The translations under genes were made by a program, and so were the position numbers. The notes below the pieces were generated by a model, which saw only the letters and a program-made list of their open reading frames with translations, had not been told where the DNA came from and made no database searches. From NCBI GenBank assembly GCA_021827245.1, contig JAKAWN010000131.1, forward strand, positions 1 to 15,530: 15,530 bases of DNA. Reading direction: 5' to 3'. Shown one piece after another: positions 774-15,530 of the stretch. Within the stretch, counting starts at the first letter, position 1. Each line of letters opens with the position of its first letter. The DNA is from Acidobacteriota bacterium (GTDB taxonomy: Bacteria; Acidobacteriota; Terriglobia; UBA7540).

Positions 774-812
774 GTGGCAGATGAAGGTTGCCAGGAGAGC
801 GGGGTTACAGCA

Positions 813-2243
813 ATGTGTGAGCAAGCGATTCGGGTCCTATTTTACAGTTCAGACGGTGCTTTTGCGGAAGTGGTTATAAGGGCTCTTGGACCGGGCTACG
901 AAGTCAGGATATGTGAGCCACTTGACTTTGACAGTTCAGGCCCCGAGCGGCAGTGGTGCGACGTGGTTTTGCTGGACATGCACGATTCCGGAGAAGATTC
1001 CGATGCGGAAGCAACGCTCCACCTGATGGATGAGATCAAGAAGGTGGACGGGACAACTCCCATGATCGCAATTGTGGGGGATTCCGACGATAGCGTCGCC
1101 CGGACCGTCATCGAGAACGGCGCGTACGATACCCTCTCAACCCCTCCCAACATGGCCGAGCTTCGGTTGTTGCTCCGGCGAGCATACCGTTTTCGTAGAA
1201 TAGAAAGAGAATTGGCTGAACTTCGCTCCCGGGACCTGTCGGCAGGCCGGCTGGGTGACATGCTTGGCACTTCTGAGGCCATGCATCAGGTGTTTGAGAC
1301 CTCGCGCAAAGTAGCCTCTTGTGATGTAAGCGTACTCATTTCGGGTGAGACCGGAACAGGGAAAGAGCTTCTGGCGCGAGCCATACATCGGCTCAGTCCT
1401 CGCGCTGCCGGCCCGCTGGTGGCTTTTTCCTGCGCTAACCTGCCGGAAACCCTCGTGGACGACGAACTTTTTGGTCATGAGAAGGGTGCTTTTACGGGCG
1501 CTATCTCAACAAGACGCGGGCGCTTTGAAGCAGCCCATGGCGGAACTTTGCTCCTGGACGAGATCGGTGACCTGCCCCTGGGATTACAGTCCAAGCTGCT
1601 GCGAGTTTTGCAGGAGCGGTCTTTCGAACGTCTCGGCAGCAATACACCTATTGCCGCCGATGTACGAGTCATCTGCGCAACCCATCGGAACCTCGAAGCG
1701 ATGGTAGAAGAAGGAAGATTCCGGCAGGATCTTTATTACCGGCTCAACGTTGTGCCAATCCAGATCCCGGCGTTGCGCGAGCGCAGGGACGAAATCCCGG
1801 TTCTGGCGCAGCATTTCCTGCAAGAGTTTGCAGAGCAGTTTGGCAAGACCGCTACCCGCTTTTCTCCCCTGACCATCCACGCCCTGGAAGAATATAACTG
1901 GCCTGGAAATGTCCGGGAACTGGAAAACGCCATTCAACATGCTGTCGTCATGGCAGAAGGCCCGGCAATTGAAACTTGGCATTTGCCAAATAGCCTTCGC
2001 GGAGACGTCGAGCAGACGTCCGTCGGCCGCTCCTATGAGGACGAAGTCCGCGAATTCAAACGCCGGTTGATCATGCGAACGCTCAGAGAGTGCGGCGGGC
2101 GCAAGGTGGATGCTGCGCGCGCCCTGGGAGTGGCGCGTGGATATCTCCATCGCCTGATCAATCAATTGCAGATACAGATTGATGACGACGAGCTTGAACC
2201 TGTCGAGGCTGAGGGGCCTGCTTCTCAGGAACACATTATGTGA
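813..2243 (+). CDS. Sigma-54 enhancer-binding regulator, degenerate receiver
   Basis: An NtrC-class transcription activator that would hydrolyse ATP to open sigma-54 RNA polymerase promoters. Numbering is from the ATG at 813 (476 aa). The receiver-like domain spans about 5-125, the AAA+ domain about 145-385, and the Fis-type helix-turn-helix about 420-455. The AAA+ motifs are intact: Walker A GETGTGKE (178-185), sigma-54 contact loop GAFTGA (225-230), Walker B GGTLLLDE (243-250) and WPGNVREL (363-370). The receiver keeps a possible phospho-acceptor Asp55 in VVLLDM. The usual Asp-Asp pocket is Ser-Ser in VLFYSSD, and the conserved Lys of the LTKP motif is Thr in LSTPP, so normal phosphorylation is doubtful. 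A GTG at 774 would add 13 residues but has no ribosome site. I prefer 813 because it leaves a normal short lead into the first strand, although its AGGAG (793-797) is 15 nt away. The next gene follows after 24 bp. The family assignment is firm; the target genes are inferred. Confidence 0.93.
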   Translation: MCEQAIRVLFYSSDGAFAEVVIRALGPGYEVRICEPLDFDSSGPERQWCDVVLLDMHDSGEDSDAEATLHLMDEIKKVDGTTPMIAIVGDSDDSVARTVIENGAYDTLSTPPNMAELRLLLRRAYRFRRIERELAELRSRDLSAGRLGDMLGTSEAMHQVFETSRKVASCDVSVLISGETGTGKELLARAIHRLSPRAAGPLVAFSCANLPETLVDDELFGHEKGAFTGAISTRRGRFEAAHGGTLLLDEIGDLPLGLQSKLLRVLQERSFERLGSNTPIAADVRVICATHRNLEAMVEEGRFRQDLYYRLNVVPIQIPALRERRDEIPVLAQHFLQEFAEQFGKTATRFSPLTIHALEEYNWPGNVRELENAIQHAVVMAEGPAIETWHLPNSLRGDVEQTSVGRSYEDEVREFKRRLIMRTLRECGGRKVDAARALGVARGYLHRLINQLQIQIDDDELEPVEAEGPASQEHIM

Positions 2244-2267
2244 CATGTCCGACCGCACACGTTTGCA

Positions 2268-3257
2268 ATGAACGTAGGGTCCAAGCCAGATAACCTTCCC
2301 GCGGAGGGACACAAGGTTCTTTCCTTCTCCGAAGATTTCCTCGTCGATTTGCTGCGCCAGGCACAGAACTCTGACGGCGGATGGGGTTACCGCCCGGGGC
2401 TGCCGAGCAGCGTTGAACCTACCGCGTGGTCAATACTCGCATTGAGAGTTGATGAGCCGGGCCACGACAAAGCCCTTTCTGCCGCGTCAAATTACGTGCA
2501 ACGTACACAATTGGCACAGGGGGCATGGCCAACAAGCACCGGCAAGGATCCCGGATGCTGGACAACAGCCCTGGCATGTCTGGCTCTTCTTAAGCTCAAC
2601 CCCCCTTCACATGACGCCATCGCCCGGGGACTCAAATGGCTATGCGCAACCTGGCCGGCGGAGGGGAGCCTGATCTGGCGTATCCGGCAGACATGGATGC
2701 GGAAATCCCAGGATGTTGTTCGGCAGAATTATTCCCTTCGCGGTTGGAGTTGGACGCCGAACACGGCAAGCTGGGTTGAACCCACGGCCTATGTCCTGAT
2801 CCTGCTTCAAAATGCCCCTGAACAATTCTGCCCGCCAGAGGCCAAGGAGCGCATCCGCATGGCCGAAAGGATGCTCTATGACCGGGTGTGCCCTGGCGGA
2901 GGTTGGAATGCGGGCAATCCCCTCGTCTACGGAGTTCCCGGAGTCCCCAGGATTGGACCCACCGTTTGGGCCCTCCTGGCTCTGCGGCGCGACAAAGACC
3001 GTTCTATAAACCGGCAGAGTGTTGAATGGCTGGAACGCACCTATGACAATATCTGCAGTCCCAGCTCCCTGGCCCTGGCTCATCTATGCCTTAAAGCTTA
3101 CGGCCGCTCGGCACCTCCCATCGAGACGGAACTCTATAGGTTTTATCAGCGCAACCAGTTCCTCCAGAGTGTCCCGGTTGTGGCATGGGCATCATTGGCC
3201 GTCAACGGCATTCCCGGCTGGCTCGAAAGTTCATTTCAGGACAAATGCAAGGTATGA
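2268..3257 (+). CDS. Prenyltransferase/squalene-cyclase repeat protein
   Basis: A 329-aa protein made of alpha-alpha repeats of the terpene cyclase/protein prenyltransferase type. The repeat is a Gly/Trp turn followed by a helix of the form PTAWxxLAL: DGGWGY with VEPTAWSILAL (36-59), GAWPTSTG with CWTTALACLAL (85-107), GWSWTPN with VEPTAYVLILL (159-180), and GGGWNAGNP with GPTVWALLAL (210-239), plus a weaker final unit near 264-276. It is about half the length of a bacterial squalene-hopene cyclase and has no DxDD catalytic motif. A D-P-G-C at 94-97 faintly recalls the zinc-binding Asp/Cys of prenyltransferase beta subunits, but the spacing differs. There is no signal peptide, so it is probably cytoplasmic. 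The ATG at 2268 has no clear ribosome site and sits 24 bp after the regulator. The end overlaps the DUF362 gene by ATGA, so the two are probably translated together. The fold is clear; the reaction and substrate are unknown, and it may bind rather than cyclise an isoprenoid. Confidence 0.85.
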   Translation: MNVGSKPDNLPAEGHKVLSFSEDFLVDLLRQAQNSDGGWGYRPGLPSSVEPTAWSILALRVDEPGHDKALSAASNYVQRTQLAQGAWPTSTGKDPGCWTTALACLALLKLNPPSHDAIARGLKWLCATWPAEGSLIWRIRQTWMRKSQDVVRQNYSLRGWSWTPNTASWVEPTAYVLILLQNAPEQFCPPEAKERIRMAERMLYDRVCPGGGWNAGNPLVYGVPGVPRIGPTVWALLALRRDKDRSINRQSVEWLERTYDNICSPSSLALAHLCLKAYGRSAPPIETELYRFYQRNQFLQSVPVVAWASLAVNGIPGWLESSFQDKCKV

Positions 3258-4168
3258 GTTATTCTGATACGCTCCTGGTCCCTTCCTTCAAGCGTCCGCC
3301 CTCCAGAGTGGCAATTAGAGCGGTGTCGGACTATGAGGCTGACATCGAGGCGATCCTCTGGGAAGCTTTGCAGGAATTCCGGCTTCCCGTTCGGGGTAAG
3401 TCGGTCCTCCTCAAGCCGAACTTTGTCGAACCCGAGATGCAGGGGATAATCAATACTCATCCGATTGTGATAAGGGGTGCACGGGAAGTGTTCCTGAGGC
3501 TGGGCGCAGATTCCGTAACTATCGCCGAGGGGCCAGGCCATGAACGCGACACGGAAGGCATCCTGGAAGTGCTAAGGCTGCGGGAATACGTAGGGCCGCT
3601 GGAACGCACCTTCGTCGATCTGAACACCGGCGACGTCGCGGAAGTCGCTACACGCACCCAAGCCTCCAAACTGAAAGCTCTGTTCTTGCCGAAGACCGTG
3701 CTGGCAGCCGATTTTGTAGTTTCTATGCCCAAGATGAAGACCCACCACTGGGTTGGTGTCACTCTGGCCCTGAAGAACATGTTTGGCATAGTTCCTGGAA
3801 ACTGCTACGGGTGGCCGAAAAACGTCCTTCATTGGGCAGGAATCAGTAAATCCATTCTGGACATTAACGGGACAGTACGCCCGGACTTCGCCATTGTGGA
3901 TGGCATAGTGGGCATGGAAGGAAACGGCCCGATCCAGGGAACGCCCAAGAACTCCAGGGTTTTGGTGGTCGGCAATGATCCGGTTGCGGTGGACGCCACC
4001 TGCGCCAGGATCATGGGGCTAGTTCCAGACAAGATTGACTACATCAAACGCGCCGCACTGCTGCTTGGAAATATGCAGGAAGAAAAGGTCGAGCAGGTGG
4101 GTGAAAGCATAGCGTCCGTGCAGACGCCTTTTGAGCTCTTGCCGGCCTTCCAGCGGCTGCGAGCATAA
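3254..4168 (+). CDS. DUF362 family protein
   Basis: A 304-aa protein of the DUF362 family (COG2006), whose biochemical role I do not know. Family hallmarks are VLLKPNFV near the N-terminus, then NTHPIVI, a Gly-Ala-Asp segment leading into IAEGPGHERDTE, the central SMPKMKTHH followed by ALKNMFGIVPG, IVDGIVGMEGNGP, and VGNDPVAVDATCARIMG near the C-terminus. Many DUF362 proteins carry extra 4Fe-4S ferredoxin motifs; no such Cys cluster is present here, so this is the single-domain form. I see no signal peptide or membrane span. I chose the ATG at 3254, which overlaps the upstream stop as ATGA and begins just before the conserved region. An ATG at 3245 has an AGGA close by and is an alternative. 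The ATG at 3185 would lie deep inside the preceding gene and is unlikely. The overlap implies a functional partnership with the repeat protein. Confidence 0.88.
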   Translation: MSYSDTLLVPSFKRPPSRVAIRAVSDYEADIEAILWEALQEFRLPVRGKSVLLKPNFVEPEMQGIINTHPIVIRGAREVFLRLGADSVTIAEGPGHERDTEGILEVLRLREYVGPLERTFVDLNTGDVAEVATRTQASKLKALFLPKTVLAADFVVSMPKMKTHHWVGVTLALKNMFGIVPGNCYGWPKNVLHWAGISKSILDINGTVRPDFAIVDGIVGMEGNGPIQGTPKNSRVLVVGNDPVAVDATCARIMGLVPDKIDYIKRAALLLGNMQEEKVEQVGESIASVQTPFELLPAFQRLRA

Positions 4169-4169
4169 G

Positions 4170-4313: not shown

Positions 4314-4337
4314 TGGGAAGATGAGGTATTTACCTGA

Positions 4338-4366
4338 TTGACAATAAGGTACATTCCTAGTACTGA
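4338..4366 (+). promoter_or_regulatory. Weak sigma-70-type promoter candidate
   Basis: A perfect TTGACA (4338-4343) is followed at the ideal 17-nt spacing by TACTGA (4361-4366), a poor match to TATAAT. Shifting one base gives ACTGAT with 18-nt spacing, which is no better. A transcript from here would have a roughly 270-nt leader before the first TadE-like gene, running through the dyads at 4376-4408 and 4477-4551. Confidence 0.25.
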
Positions 4367-4375
4367 TATGAGAGG

Positions 4376-4408
4376 TTTTTCAGGACATTCGGTAATGTGT
4401 CCGAAAAA
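4376..4408. repeat. Long dyad, candidate activator site
   Basis: The left arm TTTTTC-A-GGACA (4376-4387) pairs with the right arm TGTCC-GAAAAA (4398-4408), giving 11 complementary pairs interrupted only by one bulged A, around a 10-nt centre. The T-run is on the 5' side, so this is not a rho-independent terminator for the upstream genes. Its centre is about 185 bp ahead of the -24 element, within the usual range for an enhancer-binding protein site. That the regulator at 813-2243 binds it is an inference. Confidence 0.4.
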
Positions 4409-4476
4409 GAGATTGTGAAATGGCAGATGAAAAGCCGTATCCAGAAACAATTTACGTCCCCAGACTCTATGCCAGT

Positions 4477-4551
4477 CAGCCGGCGTGCCGCTGCACGGGC
4501 AAAAGGCGGGAGTGCCGGTGGCAGTGAAGGCAGCCGAAGTTCTGAACCGGC
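4477..4551. other. GC-rich dyads, possibly structured leader
   Basis: Two imperfect dyads lie next to each other. CAG-CGG pairs with CCG-CTG within 4477-4493, with one bulged C. GCCGGT (4514-4519) pairs with ACCGGC (4546-4551), with an inner CAG/CTG pairing. They would be transcribed only from a start upstream, such as the 4338 box, and not from the -24/-12 element. I compared the stretch by eye with the c-di-GMP-I riboswitch consensus; GGGCAAA is present, but the GGGACGCAAAGCC core is not, so no riboswitch class is assigned. Confidence 0.25.
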
Positions 4552-4574
4552 CGAATATTTGAAAAGACCAAAGT

Positions 4575-4591
4575 TTGGCAAGGAAGCTGCT
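4575..4591 (+). promoter_or_regulatory. Sigma-54 (-24/-12) promoter candidate
   Basis: TTGGCAAGGAAGCTGCT matches the sigma-54 consensus YTGGCACGN4TTGCW at 10 of the 12 compared positions, departing only at C-to-A after GGCA and T-to-C before TGC. The invariant GG (4577-4578) and GC (4589-4590) are exactly 12 nt apart. The expected start point is near 4602, giving a leader of about 43 nt before the ATG at 4645. A second site at 4421-4436 also has GG-N10-GC but a poor -12 half (AAGC), and is weaker. With a sigma-54 activator encoded 2.3 kb upstream and a dyad 185 bp ahead, this is the most likely promoter of the pseudopilin operon. Confidence 0.6.
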
Positions 4592-4615
4592 CCTCCCTTT
4601 GGAGGCGTAGGCAGC
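4586..4615. repeat. Hairpin-forming repeat overlapping the -12 element
   Basis: GCTGC (4586-4590) pairs with GCAGC (4611-4615), and inside it CCTCC (4592-4596) pairs with GGAGG (4601-4605) around a CTTT loop, leaving a T on one side and CGTAG on the other. The left arm is part of the -12 half of the promoter candidate. No U-run follows, so it is not a terminator. It could be a protein-binding dyad at the promoter, or a hairpin in longer read-through transcripts. Confidence 0.4.
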
Positions 4616-4644
4616 TTAAGTGTAATATTCTGGGGGATTCTTGT

Positions 4645-5211
4645 ATGATGCTCTACGCAGGAGGGGTGGAACGGGGACGCATGTGTCAATACACGAGGAC
4701 ACTCTCAAAGCGAATCTGTGTCCGAGTGGTTACAAGGTGGCGGGAAGAGTCAGGTGCCGAGCTGTTTGAGGCGGCGCTGGTAATTCCCCTTCTTCTCATG
4801 CTCTTGCTGGGGATTGTGACCTTCGGCAGGGCCTACAACATTTATCAGACGATTACCAGGGCGGCGAGAGAAGGCGCCCGGGAACTCGTGCTGTCAAGCA
4901 GCGCGGAAACGGGCAGCACTGTCTATTCTGCCTCCGACGTACAGACGAACTTTGTCGACCCTGCCCTGACGGCCGTCGGCCTCGATCCCAGTAAGATTAA
5001 GAACTACAGCACCATCTACGTCTTTCTCGATCCCAACGACCCAACTCCCAACATCTGCGGAGTTCAGATTTCTTTTCAATACCCGTATCAGCTTGCGCTT
5101 CCGTTCACTACCGTGAATCTCTCAACAATCAATCTTTCGACAACGGTTCAGATGCGCATGGAGAACCAGCCGACGAACTGTTCGACTCTAGTTGGAGAAG
5201 CTGTGCCATGA
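4645..5211 (+). CDS. TadE-like pseudopilin 1
   Basis: A 188-aa TadE-type protein of Tad (tight adherence) pilus or related secretion systems. TadE and TadF are minor pseudopilins anchored by one N-terminal hydrophobic helix. Residues 37-42 read G-AELFE, matching the prepilin peptidase rule G/XXXXE with Glu at +5, followed by a hydrophobic helix (about 43-62) and the family's AAREGAR stretch at 73-79. The rest (about 80-188) is predicted to be outside the inner membrane and beta-rich, with two cysteines at 138 and 179. The ATG at 4645 is preceded by GGGGGA at 7-nt spacing. An in-frame ATG at 4681 is an alternative, with AGGAGG (4659-4664) rather far upstream. It is the first gene after the sigma-54 promoter candidate and overlaps the second TadE-like gene by ATGA. 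The family is clear; whether it serves a true pilus is unknown. Confidence 0.88.
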   Translation: MMLYAGGVERGRMCQYTRTLSKRICVRVVTRWREESGAELFEAALVIPLLLMLLLGIVTFGRAYNIYQTITRAAREGARELVLSSSAETGSTVYSASDVQTNFVDPALTAVGLDPSKIKNYSTIYVFLDPNDPTPNICGVQISFQYPYQLALPFTTVNLSTINLSTTVQMRMENQPTNCSTLVGEAVP

Positions 5212-5819
5212 TCAAAGGGGATCTGCGTAAGTTTCTTAAGAATGAGAGACGTAAAGGCCTGTTCAAGGCACTTGGACTGTTCCGGCGCAGCGAAGCCGCG
5301 GAGCTCCTTGAATTTGCCCTGGCGCTTCCGCTCATCCTGGTGATGTTGGTTGGTGTTCTGGATTTTGCGAGCGCTTACCACCTGAAGCAGATACTTGCCA
5401 ACGCAGCACGGGAAGGCGCGAGGCTGGCAGCTTCAGAACCTATTATAGACGAGAGCCAATCGAGCCCCGGGTCCGTTCAGGCCGTCTATGAGGATGTGAC
5501 AACCTACCTGCAGGATGCCGGCGTCAACACCTCGTTTATCGGTTCGAGTATGTCCTATAACACCTCAACTGGAACTGCGACTTACTATACGACCAGCGGG
5601 GGCAACACTTACGGGCTGATAATCAATAGACAATATTATATTACAACCAACCCCGACGGCACTCCTATCGATCCTCCTGTCTTGGCAAACCAAGTCACGT
5701 TGATTTGTCCGTATGACTGGACCTATGGTTTTAACAATGTCATCAAACTTCTGATTCCATCGGCGAGCGTCCCCGGCAACATGACGATCACGGTGGACGC
5801 CGCGATGCCACAGCTCTAA
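5208..5819 (+). CDS. TadE-like pseudopilin 2
   Basis: A 203-aa TadE-like protein, paralogous to the gene before it. A basic N-terminus (1-27) leads to AELLEFALALP (31-41), a hydrophobic helix to about residue 56, and the characteristic NAAREGARLAA at 65-75. The prepilin peptidase-like site has Ala30 where Gly is usual, with Glu35 at +5. Processing is therefore plausible but less certain than for the first copy. The exported part is rich in Ser, Thr, Tyr and Asn (for example the stretch around 112-135), which could suit glycosylation, and contains a single Cys near residue 167. The ATG at 5208 overlaps the upstream TGA, so translation is coupled and the two proteins are probably made in equal amounts. 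The stop is followed by 85 bp before the start I chose for the TadG-like gene. Confidence 0.87.
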   Translation: MIKGDLRKFLKNERRKGLFKALGLFRRSEAAELLEFALALPLILVMLVGVLDFASAYHLKQILANAAREGARLAASEPIIDESQSSPGSVQAVYEDVTTYLQDAGVNTSFIGSSMSYNTSTGTATYYTTSGGNTYGLIINRQYYITTNPDGTPIDPPVLANQVTLICPYDWTYGFNNVIKLLIPSASVPGNMTITVDAAMPQL

Positions 5820-5890
5820 TGAACAGAGGCAGTGCAGTTGGGTGCCCTTGGAATTCACAACGAACACCGTGAAAGCATGGCTTGGTCGGG

Positions 5891-5895
5891 AGGAG
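5891..5895 (+). promoter_or_regulatory. Ribosome site fixing the TadG-like start
   Basis: AGGAG, 9 nt before the ATG at 5905, is the clearest ribosome site in this part of the window. It favours 5905 over a GTG at 5842, which has only AGAGG about 12 nt away. Confidence 0.6.
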
Positions 5896-5904
5896 CAGGA
5901 AAGC

Positions 5905-7344
5905 ATGACAGCAGAGAGGCGATCGAGAGCAAAGTCTTCCAATGAAAGTGGCGTCAGTATTCTTATTATTGCCGTGGGCATGGTCTTTGTCCTGGGGATG
6001 GCAGGGTTAGGCATTGACCTCGCCTCGCTTTATGTCGGGCGAAGCCAGGCTCAGCGCGCGGCTGATGCGGCAGCACTGGCGGGTGCCACGGCTCTTGTCG
6101 ATGATAGCTGCGTTACCGGGTCCACGGGAACGCCCCTCAGCGGCGGCTGTATGGCGCTTGCCAGGCAGCGGGCCGAAGCGGTTGGAAACAACAACCTGAT
6201 CGCCGGGGTGAGCCCGGACATTACAGACAATGATATCAGCTTTCCTAGCACCTCAAGCAGTGATCCTCAGGTTCAGGTTATTGCCGGACGCGGAACTTAT
6301 GACGGTGCCGACCATGGCAACCCAATGCCGACCTTCTTCATGAAAATATTCGGCATCACGACGGCCAGCGTTTCAGCGGTGGCAACTGCGGAAGCGTATA
6401 ATCCCTCCGGCTCGTCCACCAATGCCGGCACGACTTGTGTTAAGCCCTGGATGTTTCCCAACTGCGACCAGTTCAACACAACCGTTGATCCCAATTACCC
6501 ATACTGCTCAGGGGGTGTTGGGCCTTTCGTTGAGCCAGACGGAAGCGGAGGCTATACCGTTGCCCGCCCGGTAAACTATCCTAACGGGGCAATCGGGGAA
6601 CCCTACGTGATTAAACCGGCCTCCCCCGGATCCACCCCGGCTCCGGGTCAATATTACGCTGCCTACATACCGAGCAACACCGCTGTGCCCAGCGAGTGTC
6701 CTGCATGTGCGACGCAAGTATCCACCGGAGGTTCGGGCAGCGGCGCCCTGTACCGCGCCAACATCGAATGCTGTAATTCAACACCCCTTATCTGCGGGGG
6801 CGCCGTCGACCTCGAGAACACTCTTCAGAGCAACGCTGGCAATATGGCCGGCCCAACCTACCAGGGGGTTGATTGCCTGATTCACCAGGATGAAACGGCT
6901 GCCGGAGCCAATGGCGCAAGTTGTGGCCAGGACTACATTGAGGGCTTAACAGACAACTGCACTGATCCCGGAAGCCAGCTAGCGAGCGATCTGCCGAGCC
7001 TGCCAGCGATTCCCCCCTCAATCATGCCTGGAGCGAATGACCCTTATAACCCTGGTGGAAATAGTTCGATCCCCTACGCTGCCTCTAATTCGGTAGTCGT
7101 GGCGCCGATCTTCGATGGCAACATAGCGTCTGGCCAGAACACCGTCCAGGTCGCCGGCTTCGTCCAGCTCTTCATCCGTGATGTGACCGCAACGGGAAAT
7201 CCGAAGGGAACTGTCTATGCTTATGTTCTCGGCATCTCCGGCTGCGGCTCGGGAGGATCAGGCGCTAACTCCAACAACGGAAGCGGGGGGCCCGTCGTTT
7301 CAGACACCGGTTCTTATGTCCCCGTGCGTCTGATCCACCAATAA
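5905..7344 (+). CDS. TadG-like Flp pilus-assembly protein, Cys-rich
   Basis: A 479-aa protein with the TadE/G-like N-terminal domain: SGVSILIIAVGM leading into one membrane helix (about 17-40), then IDLASLYVGRSQAQRAADAAALAGATAL (38-64 region), the hallmark of TadG proteins. The remainder is predicted to be periplasmic or surface-exposed. Classical TadG proteins often have a von Willebrand A domain; I see no MIDAS DxSxS motif. Instead there are 14 cysteines, including CPAC and ECC, which suggests disulfides, and many Gly, Ser, Asn and Pro residues. The C-terminus is a Gly/Ser/Asn-rich linker ending in VPVRLIHQ. The ATG at 5905 is used because of its AGGAG; a GTG at 5842 would add 21 residues. 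It follows two TadE-like genes, and the first membrane paralogue starts only 4 bp after its stop, so they very likely share a transcript. The N-terminal family is firm; the function of the large exported part is unknown. Confidence 0.85.
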   Translation: MTAERRSRAKSSNESGVSILIIAVGMVFVLGMAGLGIDLASLYVGRSQAQRAADAAALAGATALVDDSCVTGSTGTPLSGGCMALARQRAEAVGNNNLIAGVSPDITDNDISFPSTSSSDPQVQVIAGRGTYDGADHGNPMPTFFMKIFGITTASVSAVATAEAYNPSGSSTNAGTTCVKPWMFPNCDQFNTTVDPNYPYCSGGVGPFVEPDGSGGYTVARPVNYPNGAIGEPYVIKPASPGSTPAPGQYYAAYIPSNTAVPSECPACATQVSTGGSGSGALYRANIECCNSTPLICGGAVDLENTLQSNAGNMAGPTYQGVDCLIHQDETAAGANGASCGQDYIEGLTDNCTDPGSQLASDLPSLPAIPPSIMPGANDPYNPGGNSSIPYAASNSVVVAPIFDGNIASGQNTVQVAGFVQLFIRDVTATGNPKGTVYAYVLGISGCGSGGSGANSNNGSGGPVVSDTGSYVPVRLIHQ

Positions 7345-7348
7345 GTCG

Positions 7349-9022
7349 ATGGTGGAGAAGGGGAAGATCGCCAAGAACGAACCCGCAGAACACGCTGCGA
7401 CAGACAGCCTGCGGCGTGGCACAGAACTCTCCACCGTGCCAGAGAATTCATTACCTGCAGCACGTTCAGGGTTTGCCCTTTCTTCCTTATTCCGCAGGGT
7501 GTTTTCCTTCAACACTGTTCTGGTCTTTCTGCTGCTTGGCGTGGTCGCGGGGACAGTCTATCTGAACGTTAGGAACGCGGCCGAGTCATCGGTCTCGGAT
7601 GCCGGACACATCATCTTTGAAGGCGACACGTGGTGGCACCTTGCCGTCGGCGACCACATCCTCACCACGCATCGCTGGCCTACAACTGACCAGTACTCAT
7701 TCACCGCGCACGGTGATTCGTGGATCGCTTACGAATGGCTCGGTGACGTGATGATTGCCGTTGCCCACAGGATTATGGGTTTGACGGGCATGGCGGTCCT
7801 GCTGGTGGGTCTTGCCGCGGTTATTGTTCTCCTTATGTACCGTTACGCCTGTCTCAGGAGTCGAAATACCAAAGCAGCTTTTGTCGCCTGTGCGTTGCTC
7901 CTGCCGCTGGTATTTATCTCCTTTACGCTTCGACCGCAACTTCTCGGATACATTTTCCTCCTCTTGACATTGATCTGGCTGGAGAAGTTTCGCCAGGGAA
8001 AGCAGAAGAACCTCTGGCTGCTGCCACCGTTATTTCTGGTTTGGGTCAACGTCCACGGATCATTCGCGTTCGGCCTTGCTGCGCTGGGCCTCTACTGGGC
8101 TAGCGGCCTCACCGATTTCAGAATTGGGCAGATCAGGGCCGAACGCTGGACTGAAAAACAGCGGCGGCACCTTGCCGTTATCACACTATTTTCGCTCCTA
8201 GCGCTGATCATCACGCCGTATGGCACGCAACTTGCTGCATACCCAGTGAACATGGCATTTTTCCAGCCGGTGAATATCGCCTCCTTCCAGGAATGGAGGG
8301 TTCCGGATTTCGGCGCAACGTATGGGGAACTGCTGCTGGCGATGATACTGCTTTTCGTGCTGCTTCCGCTTTTTTTCCGGCTTCAATATCGGGTGGAGGA
8401 AGCGGGGCTACTGCTTTTTGGGATATATGCAGCCTGTGTTCATATGAGGTTTGTGATTATATTTGCGATGATTTTTGCGCCCTTCTTGGCAACGTTGCTT
8501 GCTCGCTGGACACCCCCTTATCGGGCGAGCAGCGATAAGCCTGTCTTGAATCTCGCCTTGGTCGCGCTGGTTGTTTTCGGATGCGTGAGATTCTTCCCTT
8601 CCCGCCCAACGCTGGAAAAGGTGGTGAGCCATGGTTTCCCCAGCGGCGCTGTGGAATATATCCGGGAACACCCATCCGTGGGACCGGTGTTCAATGATGA
8701 GTTTTGGGGAGGATACCTGATCGAGGAGCTCGAGCCTGAGCAGAAAGTCTTTATCGACGGGCGGGCCGATCTTTATGAATCCGCCGGAGTCCTTTCCGAC
8801 TACATCAGGATTATGTCGCTTGCTCCCGACACAAGTTTTCTGCTTCGGAAATATCACGTGCGGTCGTGCCTGATTGAGCCCCATTCCCCGTTAGCAACAT
8901 TGCTGGCCCAGTTGCCAGGTTGGCGGCGTGTCTATTCCGACCGCATCAGCGTGATCTACGCGCGCCGATCAAAGGGCACGGTGGACACCGTTGCGAAAGG
9001 AAAGGCGAGCCGCAGAACCTGA
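7349..9022 (+). CDS. Multi-pass membrane protein, GT-C-like, copy 1
   Basis: A 557-aa integral membrane protein with about 10 hydrophobic segments between residues 52 and 415, then a soluble domain of about 140 residues. The first external loop carries EGDTWWHLAV (91-100), YSFTA (116-120) and WIAYEWLGD (125-133). Further shared motifs are RPQLLGY (195-201), WVNVHGSF (232-239), TPYGT (289-293), WGGYLI (453-458) and KVFIDGRADLYE (466-477). The large first loop with paired acidic residues and a C-terminal periplasmic domain recalls GT-C glycosyltransferases (PMT/ArnT type), which use polyprenyl-linked sugars at the outer face of the inner membrane. This resemblance is by layout, not by an identified family. 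I recall similar uncharacterised proteins in soil bacteria. The ATG at 7349 lies 4 bp after the TadG-like stop, without a clear ribosome site, so coupled translation is likely. A 111-bp gap, in which I see no convincing promoter or terminator, precedes copy 2. Confidence 0.85.
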   Translation: MVEKGKIAKNEPAEHAATDSLRRGTELSTVPENSLPAARSGFALSSLFRRVFSFNTVLVFLLLGVVAGTVYLNVRNAAESSVSDAGHIIFEGDTWWHLAVGDHILTTHRWPTTDQYSFTAHGDSWIAYEWLGDVMIAVAHRIMGLTGMAVLLVGLAAVIVLLMYRYACLRSRNTKAAFVACALLLPLVFISFTLRPQLLGYIFLLLTLIWLEKFRQGKQKNLWLLPPLFLVWVNVHGSFAFGLAALGLYWASGLTDFRIGQIRAERWTEKQRRHLAVITLFSLLALIITPYGTQLAAYPVNMAFFQPVNIASFQEWRVPDFGATYGELLLAMILLFVLLPLFFRLQYRVEEAGLLLFGIYAACVHMRFVIIFAMIFAPFLATLLARWTPPYRASSDKPVLNLALVALVVFGCVRFFPSRPTLEKVVSHGFPSGAVEYIREHPSVGPVFNDEFWGGYLIEELEPEQKVFIDGRADLYESAGVLSDYIRIMSLAPDTSFLLRKYHVRSCLIEPHSPLATLLAQLPGWRRVYSDRISVIYARRSKGTVDTVAKGKASRRT

Positions 9023-9133
9023 GTGCCCCATCGTTCCGTCAGACGTGAGTATCTTGCCGGATGCAATGGCAAAAATCGGTTCATGTTTGGTGCCTGTTTC
9101 TTGTAATGCCCCGCGCAGACTGAGAACATAAGA

Positions 9134-10804
9134 ATGCTTGATACAGCAACCGCGAAAGCCGCCAGCGCCAGGCCTTCTGTTTCAGGACATGGACCGGCCC
9201 CTATATTTCGAAGGCTTTTCTCCTTTCCGGTGCTGATGGGAGCGCTGTTGGTGGGGTGCGCGGTCGTTTCTGCTCGCTATAATCTTCCCGATCCTGACGT
9301 CTGGTGGAGTGCGGCGGTGGGCAAGCAGATTCTGGCCACTCACACTGTTCCCACTTCCGACTGGCATTCATTTACCGCCCAGGGCGCGCCATGGATGGCA
9401 TACGAGTGGCTGGGCGATATCGCGACCGGCGCGGCGGCAGAGCTTGGCGGCCTGCGCGGAATGACAGCGCTTCTTTTGCTGCTTACCGCAATTTTCATAG
9501 CACTGTTTTACGGTTACGCGACTCTGATCAGCGGAAGCTCCAAGGCGGCACTGATACCCTGCGCGATTGCTTTGCCGATCCTGCAAATCTTCTTTACCTT
9601 GCGTCCCCAACTCATCGGCTACATCTTCCTCATTATCACATTGATCTGTCTCGAACGATTCCGCCAGGGAAAGCAGAAGACTCTTTGGGCACTTCCCCCG
9701 TTGTTCCTGATCTGGCTAAACACTCATGGCTCCTTCGTTTTGGGTCTCGTGGCGTTCGCAATCTACTGGGGGTGCGGTCTCACGGAGTTTGAGGCAGGAG
9801 GAATTATTGCCAAACGATGGGCCGACTGGCAGCGCCGACACATGGAAATCGTCTTTCTGCTGTGCGTTGTAGCCTTGACGGTAAGTCCTTATGGAACTCG
9901 CCAAGCAGCTTATCCTTTGCAAATGGCATTCTTCGAGCCTGTCAATGTGGCGCACGTCATAGAGTGGCAGTCGCTCCCCTTTCAATTTTGGCAGATCAAA
10001 TTGCTGCTAGGCTTGGTCCTTATGTTCTGGCTTGCTCTGATCCCATTGCGGGAGAATTTCCGCCTGGAATCCATTGCCCTGTTGCTGTTTGCCACGTACG
10101 CCGCCTTTGTCCATCGCAGATTCACTCCCTTCCTTCTGATTCTCTTGATCCCGCTGCTTGCAAAGTTAATCGCAAGATGGGCGCCTGCTTATGACCCGTC
10201 GATCGACCATTTTGCATTCAACGCTATCCTCATGGCTTTGATCGCCGCCGGGCTGGTTATAACCCTGCCTTCTCGGCGGAAGCTCGAAGATGTGGTGGCA
10301 AAGAGTTTTCCGCTCAAGGCAATCGCATACCTGAACCAGCACCCTCAGCCCACGCCAACGCTAAATCAGTATAAGTGGGGCGGATATCTGATCTATTCCC
10401 CTGATTATCACCGAAAGGTTTTTATCGATGGCCGGGCCGATTTCTATGAATACGCGGGAGTCCTAGAGGATTATCTGGACATTACAGAGCTCAAGCCAGA
10501 CACGTTGTTCTTATTGCAGAAATACAATATCCAATCGTGCTTGATTCATCGGGACGGTGCGTTAGCAACAATGTTGGCTGCATCGCCGGGCTGGAAAGAG
10601 GTTTACAGGGACAAGCTGGCGGCTATCTTTATTCGCCGTCCGAAGCAGTCTTCCAGCCCGTCCGGAATCACCACCGCAAGGCCTTCTGCAACAGGCCCGG
10701 CTGGAAAAATCACGATCCGGACCGGCCAGCCCGACGAGCAAATGAGGCGCTCGTCTAATTGGCATAAAGCATGCTCTGGCATGGGGAAGTCAAGAGCCGC
10801 GTAA
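9134..10804 (+). CDS. Multi-pass membrane protein, GT-C-like, copy 2
   Basis: A 556-aa paralogue with the same topology. It differs from all the other copies at the first-loop motif: DPDVWWS (53-59), where Ser59 replaces the His of WWH; the following YSFTA is also HSFTA. Other motifs are kept: WMAYEWLGD (87-95), RPQLIGY (157-163), WLNTHGSF (194-201), SPYGT (251-255), KWGGYLI (414-420) and KVFIDGRADFYE (428-439). If the His contributes to catalysis or metal binding, this copy may be altered or inactive in that step. It also has a C-terminal tail of about 50 residues, rich in Ser, Thr, Pro and basic residues and absent from the other copies. That tail could be a non-functional extension after loss of an earlier stop. 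The start is the ATG at 9134, with no strong ribosome site. The stop at 10802-10804 is 42 bp before the preferred start of copy 3. Confidence 0.85.
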   Translation: MLDTATAKAASARPSVSGHGPAPIFRRLFSFPVLMGALLVGCAVVSARYNLPDPDVWWSAAVGKQILATHTVPTSDWHSFTAQGAPWMAYEWLGDIATGAAAELGGLRGMTALLLLLTAIFIALFYGYATLISGSSKAALIPCAIALPILQIFFTLRPQLIGYIFLIITLICLERFRQGKQKTLWALPPLFLIWLNTHGSFVLGLVAFAIYWGCGLTEFEAGGIIAKRWADWQRRHMEIVFLLCVVALTVSPYGTRQAAYPLQMAFFEPVNVAHVIEWQSLPFQFWQIKLLLGLVLMFWLALIPLRENFRLESIALLLFATYAAFVHRRFTPFLLILLIPLLAKLIARWAPAYDPSIDHFAFNAILMALIAAGLVITLPSRRKLEDVVAKSFPLKAIAYLNQHPQPTPTLNQYKWGGYLIYSPDYHRKVFIDGRADFYEYAGVLEDYLDITELKPDTLFLLQKYNIQSCLIHRDGALATMLAASPGWKEVYRDKLAAIFIRRPKQSSSPSGITTARPSATGPAGKITIRTGQPDEQMRRSSNWHKACSGMGKSRAA

Positions 10805-10846
10805 GTGGCTTTCCTCCCTGAGGGCTCTGTGAAGCGGATTTACACG

Positions 10847-12433
10847 ATGACGAATCCGGGGGAAACATCGACATTCGTTGAACAAAAGGACAACGCTACC
10901 ACCCCGATGGCAGATGGAGCACAGCCCGCCCTTCCTGCCCAGCATGAGAATAGCTTGCGTGCCGTCACGCAGAAGATCTTTTCCTTTCCAGTTCTCATGG
11001 GGACGCTACTTGTCGCCACGGTTGTCCTGTGCTCACGTCTAAATCTTCCGGATCCGGACACCTGGTGGCATCTCGCCATGGGAAAACAGATTTTGGCCAC
11101 GCGCACGTTGCCCAGATCGGATTCTTATTCGTTCACGGCTCCCGGAGCACCTTGGATTGCATATGAATGGCTTGGCGAGGTCGCCATGGCGATGGCCGCT
11201 AAGTTGGGTGCATTGCGTGGAATCGCATTCTTTGTGGTGGCGTGTGCCGCAGCATTCACGGCACTGCTCTTCGCATATGCCACCCTGGTTAGCAGGAACT
11301 CGAAAGCTGCATTGATAGCCTGCACGCTTTTCGTGCCGATCACACCAAGATTCTTTACGGCACGGCCCCAACTGATCGGTTACGCGTTCCTCATCTTAAC
11401 GCTTATTCTCCTTGAGCGCTTCCGCCAGGGAAAGCAAAGGAGCTTGTGGGTTCTTCCGCCGTTGTTTCTCGTTTGGGTTAACACCCACGGTTCGTTTGCT
11501 CTCGGCCTCGTAGTCTTCGGCGTCTATTGGGCATGCGGCCTGACAGAGTTTGAGGCGGGAGGAATCATTGCCAGGCGGTGGACCGATTGGCAGCGGCGCC
11601 ATATGGAGATCATCTTACTGCTTTGCGTACTGGCCCTGACCGTTAGCCCTTACGGAACCCGCCAAGCTGCTTACCCTATGCAGATGGCGTTTTTCCAGCC
11701 GTTGAATGTCTCGCACGTCGCGGAATGGCAGTCGCTTACGTTTGGTTCCTGGGAGGCTAAGCTTCTCCTCGCCTTGGTGCTGGTTTTCTGGCTGGCCAAT
11801 ATACCACTGAAGTCGAGCTTTCGACTGGAGAACGTGGTTCTGCTTCTTTTCGCCACCTATGCTTGTTTCGTGCATCTGCGCTTCGTTCCATTCCTCGTGC
11901 TGACGTTCGCTCCGCTGCTGGCAGAACTGATTGCGAGGTGGATACCCCGATACGAACCGTCCAAAGACCGCCACCCGCTCAATGCAGTCCTGATGGCTTT
12001 GGTTGCCGCCGGACTGGTAATGGCTTTCCCTTCCCGACGGACATTGGAAAATGTCATCTCGCAACACTACCCTGTCAAGGCCGTTGAGTATTTGTCACAT
12101 CATCCGTACCCAGGAAGAATGTTGAACGAATACAACTGGGGTGGTTATCTGATCTGGTCCGGTCGCTCCCACCACAGAGTTTTCATCGATGGGCGGGCCG
12201 ACTTCTATGAATACGCCGGAGTATTTTCCGACTATCTTCACATTTTTGAACTTAAGCCGAATGCAACAACTTTGATGCGCAGATATGATATCCGACTGTG
12301 TTTGATTTCTCGAAAGGAGCCGCTCAGGACACTGTTAGCTTCATCGCCTGACTGGAGAGAAGTGTATTCAGACAAGCTGGCGGTCATTTTTGTTCGCCGA
12401 CCCAGCCAATCCCGGATTTCTGTGCCGGAATGA
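10847..12433 (+). CDS. Multi-pass membrane protein, GT-C-like, copy 3
   Basis: A 528-aa paralogue, closest to copy 2; both share LTEFEAGGIIA and WQRRHMEI in the loop after the fourth conserved block. It has the full motif set: DPDTWWHLAMG (69-79), YSFTAPG (94-100), WIAYEWLGE (103-111), RPQLIGY (173-179), WVNTHGSF (210-217), SPYGT (267-271), NWGGYLIW (430-437) and RVFIDGRADFYE (444-455). About 10 hydrophobic segments lie between residues 45 and 395, and the soluble C-terminal domain follows. Possible starts are GTG 10805 (directly after the previous stop), GTG 10829 (with GAGGG close by) and ATG 10847. I use 10847 because the N-terminal lead then has a length like the other copies. With both the DxD and the WWH motif, this is a good representative of the active form, if the family is enzymatic. 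Confidence 0.85.
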   Translation: MTNPGETSTFVEQKDNATTPMADGAQPALPAQHENSLRAVTQKIFSFPVLMGTLLVATVVLCSRLNLPDPDTWWHLAMGKQILATRTLPRSDSYSFTAPGAPWIAYEWLGEVAMAMAAKLGALRGIAFFVVACAAAFTALLFAYATLVSRNSKAALIACTLFVPITPRFFTARPQLIGYAFLILTLILLERFRQGKQRSLWVLPPLFLVWVNTHGSFALGLVVFGVYWACGLTEFEAGGIIARRWTDWQRRHMEIILLLCVLALTVSPYGTRQAAYPMQMAFFQPLNVSHVAEWQSLTFGSWEAKLLLALVLVFWLANIPLKSSFRLENVVLLLFATYACFVHLRFVPFLVLTFAPLLAELIARWIPRYEPSKDRHPLNAVLMALVAAGLVMAFPSRRTLENVISQHYPVKAVEYLSHHPYPGRMLNEYNWGGYLIWSGRSHHRVFIDGRADFYEYAGVFSDYLHIFELKPNATTLMRRYDIRLCLISRKEPLRTLLASSPDWREVYSDKLAVIFVRRPSQSRISVPE

Positions 12434-12479
12434 ACCTTGCGATTGGATGATTTGCAGACTAACTCTGCCCTTTGAAGTG

Positions 12480-14141
12480 ATGACCGATCAAAGCTATCCC
12501 GGCGACGCGAAATCAGAGAACTGCAAATCCGTAGCGACACCGACCATGGAGGATCTGCAAACATCGCCGCACGGAGTCTCGAAAACGCTAGCGACCTTGC
12601 GGAAAGTCTTTTCCTTTCCTGGGCTATTGGGAACGATACTCATATTAGAAGCTTGGAGTACTCTTGCCCTTTATCCGCACGACCCGGATGTCTGGTGGCA
12701 TGTTGTTGTGGGGTCTCGCATCCTCAACACACACTCCTGGCCAAGTGCCGACCCTTATTCGTTCACGGCGCACGGCAATCCCTGGATCGCCTACGAGTGG
12801 TTAGGCGAGGTTGTCATGGCACTGGCGGAACGGGCGGGAGGGCTAGCCGGACTTGCGGCCTTGCGGATTGGAATTGCCGCAATACTCGGCTTGCTCCTCT
12901 ATTATTACGCTCATTTGCGGTGCCGGAACTCCAAGGCTGCGTTTGCTGCTACTGCTCTGATGTTCTGGCTGAGTTATGGATTCTTCTGGATGCGCCCGCA
13001 GTTAATAGGCTACGTTTTTCTCCTCCTTGTGCTTATTTTTGTAGAGAGATATCGGCAGGGCCAGCAGAAGTCCCTATGGATACTTCCATTTGTTTTCTTG
13101 CTCTGGGTCAATACTCACGGAAGCTTCGTATTGGGATTTCTGGTGCTGGGTGTCTACTGGGTCGGAGGGCTCTGGAACTGGGAACTTGGACACCTTCGCA
13201 TGGACCGCTGGTCTCCTGGCCAACGCCGGCACCTTAGCCTGATAATCTTGCTTTCTGAGGTGGCGCTGCTGTTAACACCCTATGGAACACAACTGGCAAC
13301 TTACCCGCTCGAAATGCTTTTTTCTCAACCACTAGTTTTCTCCAACATAGCCGAATGGAGACCCATAGGTTTTGGGGAAATATGGGGAAAAGAAGTCTTG
13401 GTTTTATTCTTACTCCTTTTCGTCGGTTTGGCAGTTCTTCGCCCTGTCTATCGGGTAGAGGAATTCATCCTCCTCTTTTTCGCAATATCCACCTGCTGCA
13501 TTCACCGGCGGATGTTCGTCGTTTTTGCGTTGATCGTCACCCCCTTGCTCGCCTCAATGTTAGCCCGATGGACGCCCCCATATAAGCCCAATGAAGATCA
13601 TTACGTCCTGAATGCATGCCTCATGGGACTGGCAGTGGCAGGAATGATTTGGTTCTTTCCCTCCAGGAAGAAAATTGAATGCTCAGTTAACCAGGTCTAT
13701 CCTCATAGCGCTGTCCAATATATCCGGGACCACCCGGATCTCAATCCAATGTTCAACGAGGACAACTGGGGGGGGTACCTGATATGGTCGCTCGGGGCTC
13801 CACACAAAGTCTTTATCGATGGTCGAGCGGACCTGTACGAACACGCCGGAGTTTATTCCGATTACATCAGTATGATGGAAGTCGCACCTCAAACAATGTT
13901 CCTCCTCCGCAAGTACTCCATTAGAAGTTGCCTGTTGATGCGAGGAGCGCCTCTTGGAACGCTCCTTGCCTCCTTGCCCGACTGGCATCGAGTGCATACA
14001 GACAAGCTGGCTGTCCTTTACGTTCACGAATCCGTCCCTTCCACTGCCCCCAAAGAAACTGCAGGTTTGGCACGGCTTCATAGTCGTTTCAGGAATGAGA
14101 GACCTGACCCGGCCAAGCATCCGAAGTGTTTTTTGCGATAG
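12480..14141 (+). CDS. Multi-pass membrane protein, GT-C-like, copy 4
   Basis: A 553-aa paralogue with the motifs DPDVWWHVVVG (68-78), YSFTAHG (93-99), WIAYEWLGE (102-110), RPQLIGY (172-178), WVNTHGSF (209-216), TPYGT (266-270), NWGGYLIW (429-436) and KVFIDGRADLYE (443-454). The cytoplasmic-side loop motif is RQGQQK rather than RQGKQK, and the sequence around 228-245 differs from copies 2 and 3, so this is a more diverged member of the DPD subgroup. A start at 12390 would overlap copy 3 by 44 bp and add 30 residues that the other copies lack. I use the ATG at 12480, 46 bp after the copy 3 stop, preceded only by a weak GAAG. The last 35 residues form an unmatched basic tail. The stop is 2 bp before the ATG of copy 5, indicating coupled translation. 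Confidence 0.85.
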   Translation: MTDQSYPGDAKSENCKSVATPTMEDLQTSPHGVSKTLATLRKVFSFPGLLGTILILEAWSTLALYPHDPDVWWHVVVGSRILNTHSWPSADPYSFTAHGNPWIAYEWLGEVVMALAERAGGLAGLAALRIGIAAILGLLLYYYAHLRCRNSKAAFAATALMFWLSYGFFWMRPQLIGYVFLLLVLIFVERYRQGQQKSLWILPFVFLLWVNTHGSFVLGFLVLGVYWVGGLWNWELGHLRMDRWSPGQRRHLSLIILLSEVALLLTPYGTQLATYPLEMLFSQPLVFSNIAEWRPIGFGEIWGKEVLVLFLLLFVGLAVLRPVYRVEEFILLFFAISTCCIHRRMFVVFALIVTPLLASMLARWTPPYKPNEDHYVLNACLMGLAVAGMIWFFPSRKKIECSVNQVYPHSAVQYIRDHPDLNPMFNEDNWGGYLIWSLGAPHKVFIDGRADLYEHAGVYSDYISMMEVAPQTMFLLRKYSIRSCLLMRGAPLGTLLASLPDWHRVHTDKLAVLYVHESVPSTAPKETAGLARLHSRFRNERPDPAKHPKCFLR

Positions 14142-14143
14142 CC

Positions 14144-15530
14144 ATGAAAACGTCTTCAATCACGGATACGGTTCAAACTTCAAAAAGAGGATCGGTCAAA
14201 GATCCGGCTCGCAAGTTCTTTTCCTTCCCGGTTTTTCTAGCTGCACTGCTGCTGGCAGGAGCTTATATCGGAAGGCTGGGGAACCTGGACCAGGCCCCAT
14301 CCTCACATTCTTCTATCTTCTGGCTGGAGGGCGACACCTGGTGGCATTTGGCAGTGGCTGCACGTATCCTGAGAACACATGTGTGGCCCACCCACGACAT
14401 CTACTCTTTTACTGCTTTCGGCTCTCCATGGATCGACTACGAATGGCTTGGCGATATTGTTCTGGATCTTTTCTGGAGACATGGCGGATTGCAGAGCCTG
14501 ATGATTTTCATCATTTTGCTTGGCGGCACTGTCATGATTCTCCTTTATTATTACGCCTCAATTCGCAGCGGAAACTGCAAGGCGGCATTCGTCGCCAGCG
14601 CCTTGGTGCTGATGCTGGCCTCGCTGCAATTCAGTACCCGCCCGCAGTTGCTGGGCTACGTTTTCCTGATCGTAACACTGATCTGCCTTGAGAAATTCCG
14701 GCAAGGCCACGCAAACGCCATTTGGCTATTACCACTTGTCTTTTGGTTATGGGTCAATACGCACGGGACCTTTGTGCTCGGGTTTCTGATCCTGGGCATC
14801 TATTGGGCGAGCGGATTTCGAGACTTTCAGTACGGGAGAATCTATGCAAAGCGTTGGAGTGGCGCTCAGCGGCGGCAGTTGGAGCTCGCATTTCTACTCT
14901 GCCTCGCAGCATCCGTCCTTACACCTTATGGAACACGCCTGGCCGCCTACCCACTCAAGATGTTTTTATCGCAGCACGAGATCATGCAGGCTGTGCAGGA
15001 GTGGCAGCCGCTTGATCTCTCGCAATTTTACGGGAAGTTCTTTCTTGTCTTATTGATGCTCTTCTTTATAGGGCTTGCAACTTCCGACTTGAGATACCGT
15101 CTCGAAGATTGTCTTCTGTTAGCATTTGCCACTTTTGAAACTTTTGTGCACGCCCGGTTTATGCTTCTCTTTGTCCCGGTTTTCGCGCCCATGGCGGCAC
15201 AGATGCTCGCAAAGTGGGTTCCGAAATACGAGCCAGCCAAAGACCACCCTGTTTTAAACTTTGCGCTAATGGCGATAATCGCCTTTGGGATCACGAAATC
15301 CTTTCCCTCAAGCCGGCGAATAAGCAATCAATTGCAGTACGAAGTTCCTGTCCGAGCAGTGCCTTTTCTAAGAGAGCATACAGAACTCAGACGAATGTTT
15401 AATGAAGCGAACTGGGGTTCGTACCTGGACTTTACCCTGGGCCCCTCTCGCAAGGTCTTCATAGATGGGCGTTACGACATTTACGAATATAACGGCGTTC
15501 TTTCAGATTATCTTTCAATCATCCATATCG
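14144..15530 (+). CDS. Multi-pass membrane protein, GT-C-like, copy 5 (partial)
   Basis: The frame opened by the ATG at 14144, two bases after the copy 4 stop, stays open to the window edge (462 codons). The gene is cut by the window, not broken. It encodes a fifth paralogue: EGDTWWHLAV (62-71), YSFTAFG (87-93), WIDYEWLGD (96-104), RPQLLGY (166-172), WVNTHGTF (203-210), TPYGT (260-264), NWGSYLDF (423-430) and KVFIDGRYDIYE (437-448). Like copy 1, it has Glu-Gly-Asp rather than Asp-Pro-Asp and an extra segment (about 45-60) before that motif. Unlike the others, it has WGSYL for WGGYL and GRYD for GRAD, so its C-terminal domain is the most diverged. About 60-100 residues should lie beyond the window, judging from the other copies. 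Confidence 0.85.
   Translation, partial: MKTSSITDTVQTSKRGSVKDPARKFFSFPVFLAALLLAGAYIGRLGNLDQAPSSHSSIFWLEGDTWWHLAVAARILRTHVWPTHDIYSFTAFGSPWIDYEWLGDIVLDLFWRHGGLQSLMIFIILLGGTVMILLYYYASIRSGNCKAAFVASALVLMLASLQFSTRPQLLGYVFLIVTLICLEKFRQGHANAIWLLPLVFWLWVNTHGTFVLGFLILGIYWASGFRDFQYGRIYAKRWSGAQRRQLELAFLLCLAASVLTPYGTRLAAYPLKMFLSQHEIMQAVQEWQPLDLSQFYGKFFLVLLMLFFIGLATSDLRYRLEDCLLLAFATFETFVHARFMLLFVPVFAPMAAQMLAKWVPKYEPAKDHPVLNFALMAIIAFGITKSFPSSRRISNQLQYEVPVRAVPFLREHTELRRMFNEANWGSYLDFTLGPSRKVFIDGRYDIYEYNGVLSDYLSIIHI

Follow-up and report, generated by a model that had tools for sequence, protein, structure and literature searches.

An array of five STT3-like GT-C membrane protein genes beside Tad pilus genes in an Acidobacteriota bacterium

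The contig JAKAWN010000131.1 of an Acidobacteriota bacterium (lineage Terriglobia, UBA7540; assembly GCA_021827245.1) was analysed over positions 1 to 15,530 of its forward strand, a stretch that we call the window. Its right half carries five paralogous genes for a polytopic membrane protein. The evidence supports their assignment to an unnamed, STT3-like family of GT-C proteins encoded within a Tad pilus cluster, and each copy is very probably a GT-C glycosyltransferase, as its homology, its fold and its retained catalytic-type residues suggest. The array consists of the following genes:

7349..9022, plus strand: copy 1, STT3-like GT-C membrane protein of 557 amino acids (open frame, alignment, structure model and fold matches)
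9134..10804, plus strand: copy 2, 556 amino acids (open frame, alignment)
10805..12433, plus strand: copy 3, 542 amino acids from a GTG or 528 amino acids from the ATG at 10847 (open frame, alignment)
12480..14141, plus strand: copy 4, 553 amino acids from the ATG at 12480, the frame being open from 12390 (open frame, alignment, second structure model)
14126..15530, plus strand: copy 5, truncated at the right end of the window, with a GTG at 14126 and an ATG at 14144 (open frame, alignment)

The open frames and the alignment bear out the original prediction of a head-to-tail array of five paralogues, the fifth running off the edge; of what it called five full-length-type copies, four are complete and copy 5 is truncated by the window edge. 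Copy 1 starts four bases downstream of the end of a TadG-like gene, the gaps between successive copies on the plus strand are 111, 42, 46 and 2 bases (with ATG starts), and self-comparison of the window DNA gives a repeat spacing of 1610-1761 bp. The copies align end to end with pairwise identities of 42-62%, copies 2 and 3 being the closest pair (62%). Sixteen residues are invariant in all five (D93, W96, D114, S117, T119, E129, R195, N234, H236, E315, R367 and the FIDGR motif, in copy 1 numbering). The C-terminal motif KVFIDGR, attributed earlier to all copies, is present in copies 1, 2, 4 and 5, while copy 3 reads RVFIDGR. In copy 2 a Ser replaces the nearly invariant His97. Internal promoters and terminators predicted in the window are at chance level (13 versus 8.4, standard deviation 3.3, and 18 versus 16.0, standard deviation 4.3, respectively), therefore we claim no transcript unit.

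Structures were modelled for copy 1 and copy 4 with a mean predicted local distance difference test score of 92.2 and 90.8, respectively, and both models have a polytopic membrane core with a GT-C fold. Comparison of the models to known structures (VIA-align) returned, among the matches listed (50 for each), exclusively GT-C-type enzymes or subunits of the glycosylphosphatidylinositol transamidase or oligosaccharyltransferase complexes, with STT3 as the top match for both. In the models, the likeness to STT3 (the STT3/AglB/PglB group, CAZy GT66, PF02516) appears to span the whole length including the C-terminal soluble domain. The structure prediction and fold search suggested with the original prediction thus upheld its GT-C-like reading and refined it to an STT3 likeness, which it lacked; no transporter was among the leading matches. 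DPY19, the tryptophan C-mannosyltransferase, also resembles the models over their whole length in the fold comparison; a passage of PMC10154233 describes it as metal independent and as sharing an STT3-like module.

The profile evidence agrees with the fold. An alignment of 100 family sequences, compared with 11 of 13 STT3 proteins (PF02516 matches from the phylum of a Desulfuromonas genome), scored a probability of 98.4% over 520 columns, and a second comparison gave 95.4% over 362; acidobacterial members alone reached 94-97%. PMT, PMT_2 and ArnT-type enzymes (GT39, GT83) share the GT-C core, with a probability of 80-88% over 131-144 columns (PMT_2 80.4%, PMT 88.3%), but the profile match is restricted to the N-terminal core, Pmt4 aligned over about 307 residues, and there is no Pfam match: at E≤1, no copy of the array hit PF02366 or PF13231. 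A plain PMT/ArnT family was rejected on these weaker and shorter matches by fold and profile. As negative controls, two sets of major facilitator superfamily transporters scored 0.1% and 1.7%, reversed STT3 1.1% and reversed PMT_2 1.3%. Transporters are ruled out by these profile scores and by the fold matches. That the copies are not enzymes at all, being transporters or scaffolds with a borrowed fold, is in keeping with a family that has no characterised member and no curated family model, yet it is scarcely credible, since transporters are neither matched by profile nor found among the leading fold matches and invariant polar residues occupy the STT3 active-site counterparts (see below). 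No copy matches Pfam PF02516 above the cut-off, the viral library gave no match at E≤0.001, and a sequence search of the PDB gave nothing meaningful.

The active-site residues were mapped onto PglB by 12 profile-alignment runs, the PglB numbering being carried over via the alignment of L085 to 5ogl. D93, a conserved acidic residue of what is predicted to be the first extracytoplasmic loop, stands at the counterpart of D56 in 10 of the 12 runs and is at least 90% conserved in the 100 family sequences. In all 12 runs E315 falls on the E of SISE, which we take to be PglB E319 from the correspondence between SVSE and TIXE; the pairwise phmmer alignment of L085 with 5ogl puts the SISE E and the E319 counterpart three residues apart. 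Equally constant (12/12) are R367 on the R of GARF (the R375 counterpart), G455 and Y456 on the G and Y of WWDYGY (Y456 being the Y468 counterpart) and D470 on the D of DGG. R195 stands at the counterpart of R147 in eight runs and was missed in the four Acidobacteria-only runs. The second D-x-D/E metal motif of PglB (D154, D156) falls into an alignment gap, the family consensus there being RPQLxGYxFL with no acidic residue, and the WWD of WWDYG, which forms the sequon +2 pocket, is replaced by xxWGGY, with W453 mostly aligned to the D. According to a passage of PMC7226087, D56 and E319 of PglB contact the acceptor amide and, together with R147, D154 and D156, the metal, while R375 is in contact with the pyrophosphate, Y468 with the first sugar and WWD with the +2 Ser/Thr. 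With the first set of residues kept, and D154/D156 and WWD absent, the donor and catalysis side would be retained and the determinants of the N-x-S/T sequon lost. Over the helices of the model, the inner loops of the five copies carry 6-10 Lys plus Arg in 39 positions and the outer loops 4-8 in 109-120; from these loop charges, the model and the homology we infer that the conserved residues lie on the periplasmic side.

Judged by its motifs, the family is outside the GT66 oligosaccharyltransferases proper, lacking two defining motifs and a match to PF02516; its members, moreover, have about 500-560 amino acids versus 640-870 in the PDB chains listed. A rival explanation is that the copies are nonetheless true oligosaccharyltransferases, which transfer an oligosaccharide, assembled beforehand on lipid pyrophosphate, to asparagine as PglB does, each copy with a sequon of its own. 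STT3 being the best fold match and the conservation of the D56, E319, R375 and Y468 counterparts speak for it; the gap at the second D-x-D/E motif and the replacement of the residues that hold the +2 Ser/Thr speak against it, as does the finding that none of 13 host genomes has a PF02516 protein above the cut-off (4 of 14 control genomes were positive). We consider this explanation improbable, also in the light of the pilins described below.

Arrays of this kind are found in other genomes. A scan of species genomes gave 337 confirmed stretches, of which 80 were kept, corresponding to 78 distinct loci; the five-copy profile detected four copies in a row in L001, five in L002, two up to the contig end in L003 and one in most others. 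In the family of genome G002, 22 of 39 genomes match at E≤1e-60, and the survey of copy number in related genomes for which the original prediction had called found three or more adjacent copies in four of the 39, namely arrays of 3 (G166, locus L126), 4 (G001, L001), 4 (G164, L125) and 5 (G002, L002). The recurrence of such arrays in four separate assemblies, together with the 38% residue difference between the closest two copies of the window, excludes an assembly error. A tree of 50 proteins, made by a quick method, clusters copy 1 with the first two copies in each of G001 and G002 (support 100); its orthologues, the first copies in L001 and L002, share 64% identity with it. Copies 2 and 3 form a clade with the third copies of the same two genomes (support 100; inner order open), and copy 5 groups with their fourth copies at a support of 80 and, at 97, with a single copy from each of G164 and G166. 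Copy 4 has no clear orthologue or supported group in this tree. Several paralogue splits therefore predate the separation of these genomes. The ratio of nonsynonymous to synonymous substitution rates (dN/dS, NG86) is about 0.11-0.16 in all seven orthologue pairs tested, i.e. purifying selection, and about 0.10 between copies 2 and 3, where dS is saturated.

In our reading, the copies are an inherited array that was diversified. Redundant duplication, in which the copies raise the dosage without a division of function, is very unlikely: tandem duplication is a common route to higher dosage, and copies 2 and 3 are a pair that the tree does not separate from the third copies of the relatives, but the copies are only 42-62% identical, their splits are older than those of the genomes, three groups being highly supported, and purifying selection acts at each array position tested. 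The shared orthologous positions and the purifying selection lend indirect support to the earlier claim that diverged copies were kept for reasons other than simple dosage, and it is plausible that they differ in donor, acceptor or position.

Upstream of the array, the window carries the following genes:

774..2243, plus strand: sigma-54-dependent activator of the response-regulator type (Pfam PF00158, 241 bits; conserved neighbour)
2268..3257, plus strand: squalene-hopene-cyclase-like repeat protein (Pfam PF13243, 29.5 bits versus a cut-off of 26.1; conserved neighbour)
3185..4168, plus strand: DUF362 protein (Pfam PF04015, 166 bits; order kept in relatives)
4645..5211, plus strand: first TadE-like protein (position and similarity to the TadE-like genes of relatives)
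5208..5819, plus strand: second TadE-like protein (Pfam PF07811 TadE, 51 bits versus a cut-off of 22.9)
5842..7344, plus strand: TadG-like protein (Pfam PF13400 Tad, 45.3 bits versus a cut-off of 22.3)

Local profiles found this order, from the activator through TadG to the array, repeated in many relatives; TadE and TadG stand beside the array in the window and in relatives, and a Tad/Flp pilus cluster looks like the setting of the array, a point that the original prediction had missed. A family gene follows TadG on the same strand within at most 353 bp in the window and in nine of the 78 loci (L001, L002, L003, L008, L010, L016, L018, L019 and L031). Tad genes occur in 35 of the 78 loci, 24 of them among the first 31 (mainly Acidobacteriota) and 11 among the other 47, raw counts with no random-locus baseline, and lower bounds, as the flank lengths differ. 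Behind the four-copy array of L001 there are genes for a Flp pilin, a prepilin peptidase, RcpC, a secretin and a ParA-type protein, the array ending just before the Flp gene (27.4 bits, below the Pfam cut-off of 32.2). TadE genes were found in all 12 genomes searched, often at more than one place; in 13 other TadE/TadG stretches of the same genomes (L262-L274), some of them on short contigs, family members and TadV were found in none and a recognisable Flp was not found in 12.

Several further neighbours were observed. The squalene-hopene-cyclase-like gene occurs in 16 and the DUF362 gene in 18 of the 78 loci, upstream of the Tad genes. Between array and Flp, L126 (12094-14520) and L125 (5491-7979) encode an S-adenosylmethionine-dependent methyltransferase and a polytopic membrane protein with no Pfam match, and L002 has a further polytopic membrane protein behind its family genes (18769-20355; relatives in L011, L017, L101 and L004). 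The membrane proteins encoded behind the arrays of L002 and L126 cannot be recognised as members of the family and match neither Pfam nor NCBIfam.

Flp pilins encoded near family genes, for which 17 loci were scanned, have Ser/Thr-rich tails at the C-terminus; the comparison set from the other TadE/TadG loci is the one recognisable pilin among 13 loci. Of 25 distinct pilins near family genes, 12 have N-x-S/T among their final 20 residues, the tail often reading N-L-T/S (L001, L010, L016, L019, L125 and others), which favours asparagine-linked transfer, but the other 13 have no sequon, including that of G002 as opposed to its close relative G001. From the gene context, a pilus component may be the acceptor, a proposal to which we give slightly less than even weight.

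A clue to the donor comes from neighbouring genes. Both L126 and L125 have a GT2 gene of the GtrB/ArnC/PgfS kind, flanked by TadG and the array. A profile built from nine such genes found GT2 genes of at least 100 bits, the threshold used, in 14 of 172 family loci; in nine of these the gene lies no more than 503 bp away and on the same strand. The nine represent eight distinct places (L120 and L126 are one; L007, L038, L077, L114, L124 and L204 are included), a raw count with no chance expectation. A GT2 neighbour is a minority pattern in the family. The GT2 of L126 matches PF00535 with 119 bits, and its best NCBIfam model is PgfS (277.8 bits, below the cut-off of 500); the ArnC model scores 168.3 bits (cut-off 529). 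The adjacency of GT2 and GT-C genes fits the multi-component transmembrane glycosylation systems (GtrB-type GT2, flippase and GT-C; described in part of PMC8035078), from which the window differs in having no GT2; a synthase may lie elsewhere in the genome. No flippase turned up, no search aimed at flippases having been made. It also fits the Pgf system of Streptococcus mutans, in which, as a passage of PMC5856776 states, PgfS and two related membrane proteins (PgfM1, PgfM2) modify a surface adhesin, but PgfM is of the PMT_2 type, belongs to another phylum, has no link to a pilus and comprises two paralogues versus five. Table 1 of PMC10920833 gives lipid-monophosphate sugars as donors of the GT-C_A families other than GT66. 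A polyprenyl-monophosphate sugar is the fairly probable donor, likelier in our judgement than a lipid-pyrophosphate oligosaccharide.

We propose that each copy is an integral membrane GT-C_A glycosyltransferase whose nearest solved relative by fold is STT3, the catalytic subunit of oligosaccharyltransferase. Its active site would face the periplasm; it would take a sugar from a polyprenyl-linked donor (a polyprenyl-monophosphate sugar being likelier than an oligosaccharide on lipid pyrophosphate) and transfer this sugar to an extramembrane acceptor, for which a Tad/Flp pilus component of the same cluster or a co-made envelope molecule is the likeliest candidate. The copies probably diversified for different acceptors, positions or linkages. 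Homology, fold, catalytic-type residues, array conservation, selection and Tad context were computed, and the activity, donor, acceptor and division of labour are what we infer from them; to the reading as a whole, a diversified array of STT3-like GT-C_A enzymes with a polyprenyl-linked donor and a pilus or envelope acceptor, we assign about even chances.

Several observations weigh against this proposal. For copy 4, STT3 leads DPY19 by only 2 Z units; the STT3 and PMT_2 profiles score 95.3% with each other, hence the profile score alone cannot single out STT3; and with only the distant members and copy 1 the STT3 probability drops to 65%, or to 17% in global mode. Just 18 columns are constant inside each orthologue group yet differ from group to group, with no clear pattern (no significance test); the C-terminal domain has 1 such column in 77, which lends no support to acceptor-site divergence there. 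No GT2 gene is found in the window, nor one of at least 100 bits in 158 of the 172 loci. In 43 of the 78 loci (36 of the 47 outside the first 31) no Tad genes were found, hence a pilus acceptor cannot hold for the whole family. The last point favours a rival explanation, in which the enzymes modify envelope polysaccharides or lipids and are placed in the Tad cluster for co-regulation, with no action on the pilus; cell-wall polymers or O antigen are frequent targets of the known GtrB/GT-C pairs, according to passages of PMC8035078 and PMC11127046. Against this stand the family genes placed so closely behind TadG in nine loci and the window, and the array of L001 that ends just before the Flp pilin, and we regard the explanation as rather unlikely.

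A bolder form of our proposal, doubtful at present, is that the family forms the sister group of STT3 and DPY19, a large and as yet unnamed lineage of bacterial, polyprenyl-monophosphate-dependent, metal-motif-poor protein glycosyltransferases, which in some Acidobacteriota form arrays of up to five in the Tad operon, each copy decorating a different pilus subunit or site. Such a lineage would link, as a surviving intermediate form, the GT-Cs that transfer monosaccharides with the oligosaccharyltransferase, which transfers en bloc.

Matches to the family at E≤1e-40 occur in 132 of 251 genomes from the phylum to which an Anaerolineaceae genome belongs and in 66 of 247 from that of a Desulfuromonas genome; at most six candidates per genome were scored, which makes the copy numbers of these surveys minimum values. 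In the former phylum, family genes stand in adjacent pairs and in one triple (G467), which indicates that tandem growth happened repeatedly. A deltaproteobacterial genome (L071/G015) has 13 family matches, several of them clustered and some in longer open frames. The homologues listed include Pcar_1756 of Syntrophotalea carbinolica, a cultivable host with a single copy. None of the 240 homologues among the matches listed has a precomputed Pfam domain, and the names seen were 'hypothetical protein', save one UniRef entry 'Glycosyltransferase'; no description of the family or of arrays of this kind was found in the titles and abstract openings of the open-licence full-text literature, a scope that excludes subscription papers and preprints.

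The family is thus widespread in uncultured soil and sediment bacteria, yet unnamed. If pilins are glycosylated by its members, this would add a protein-glycosylation route for Tad pili, and the natural arrays would allow specificity to be mapped through the comparison of paralogues. With STT3-like donor-side residues and no sequon pocket, the family could make the origin of oligosaccharyltransferase testable.

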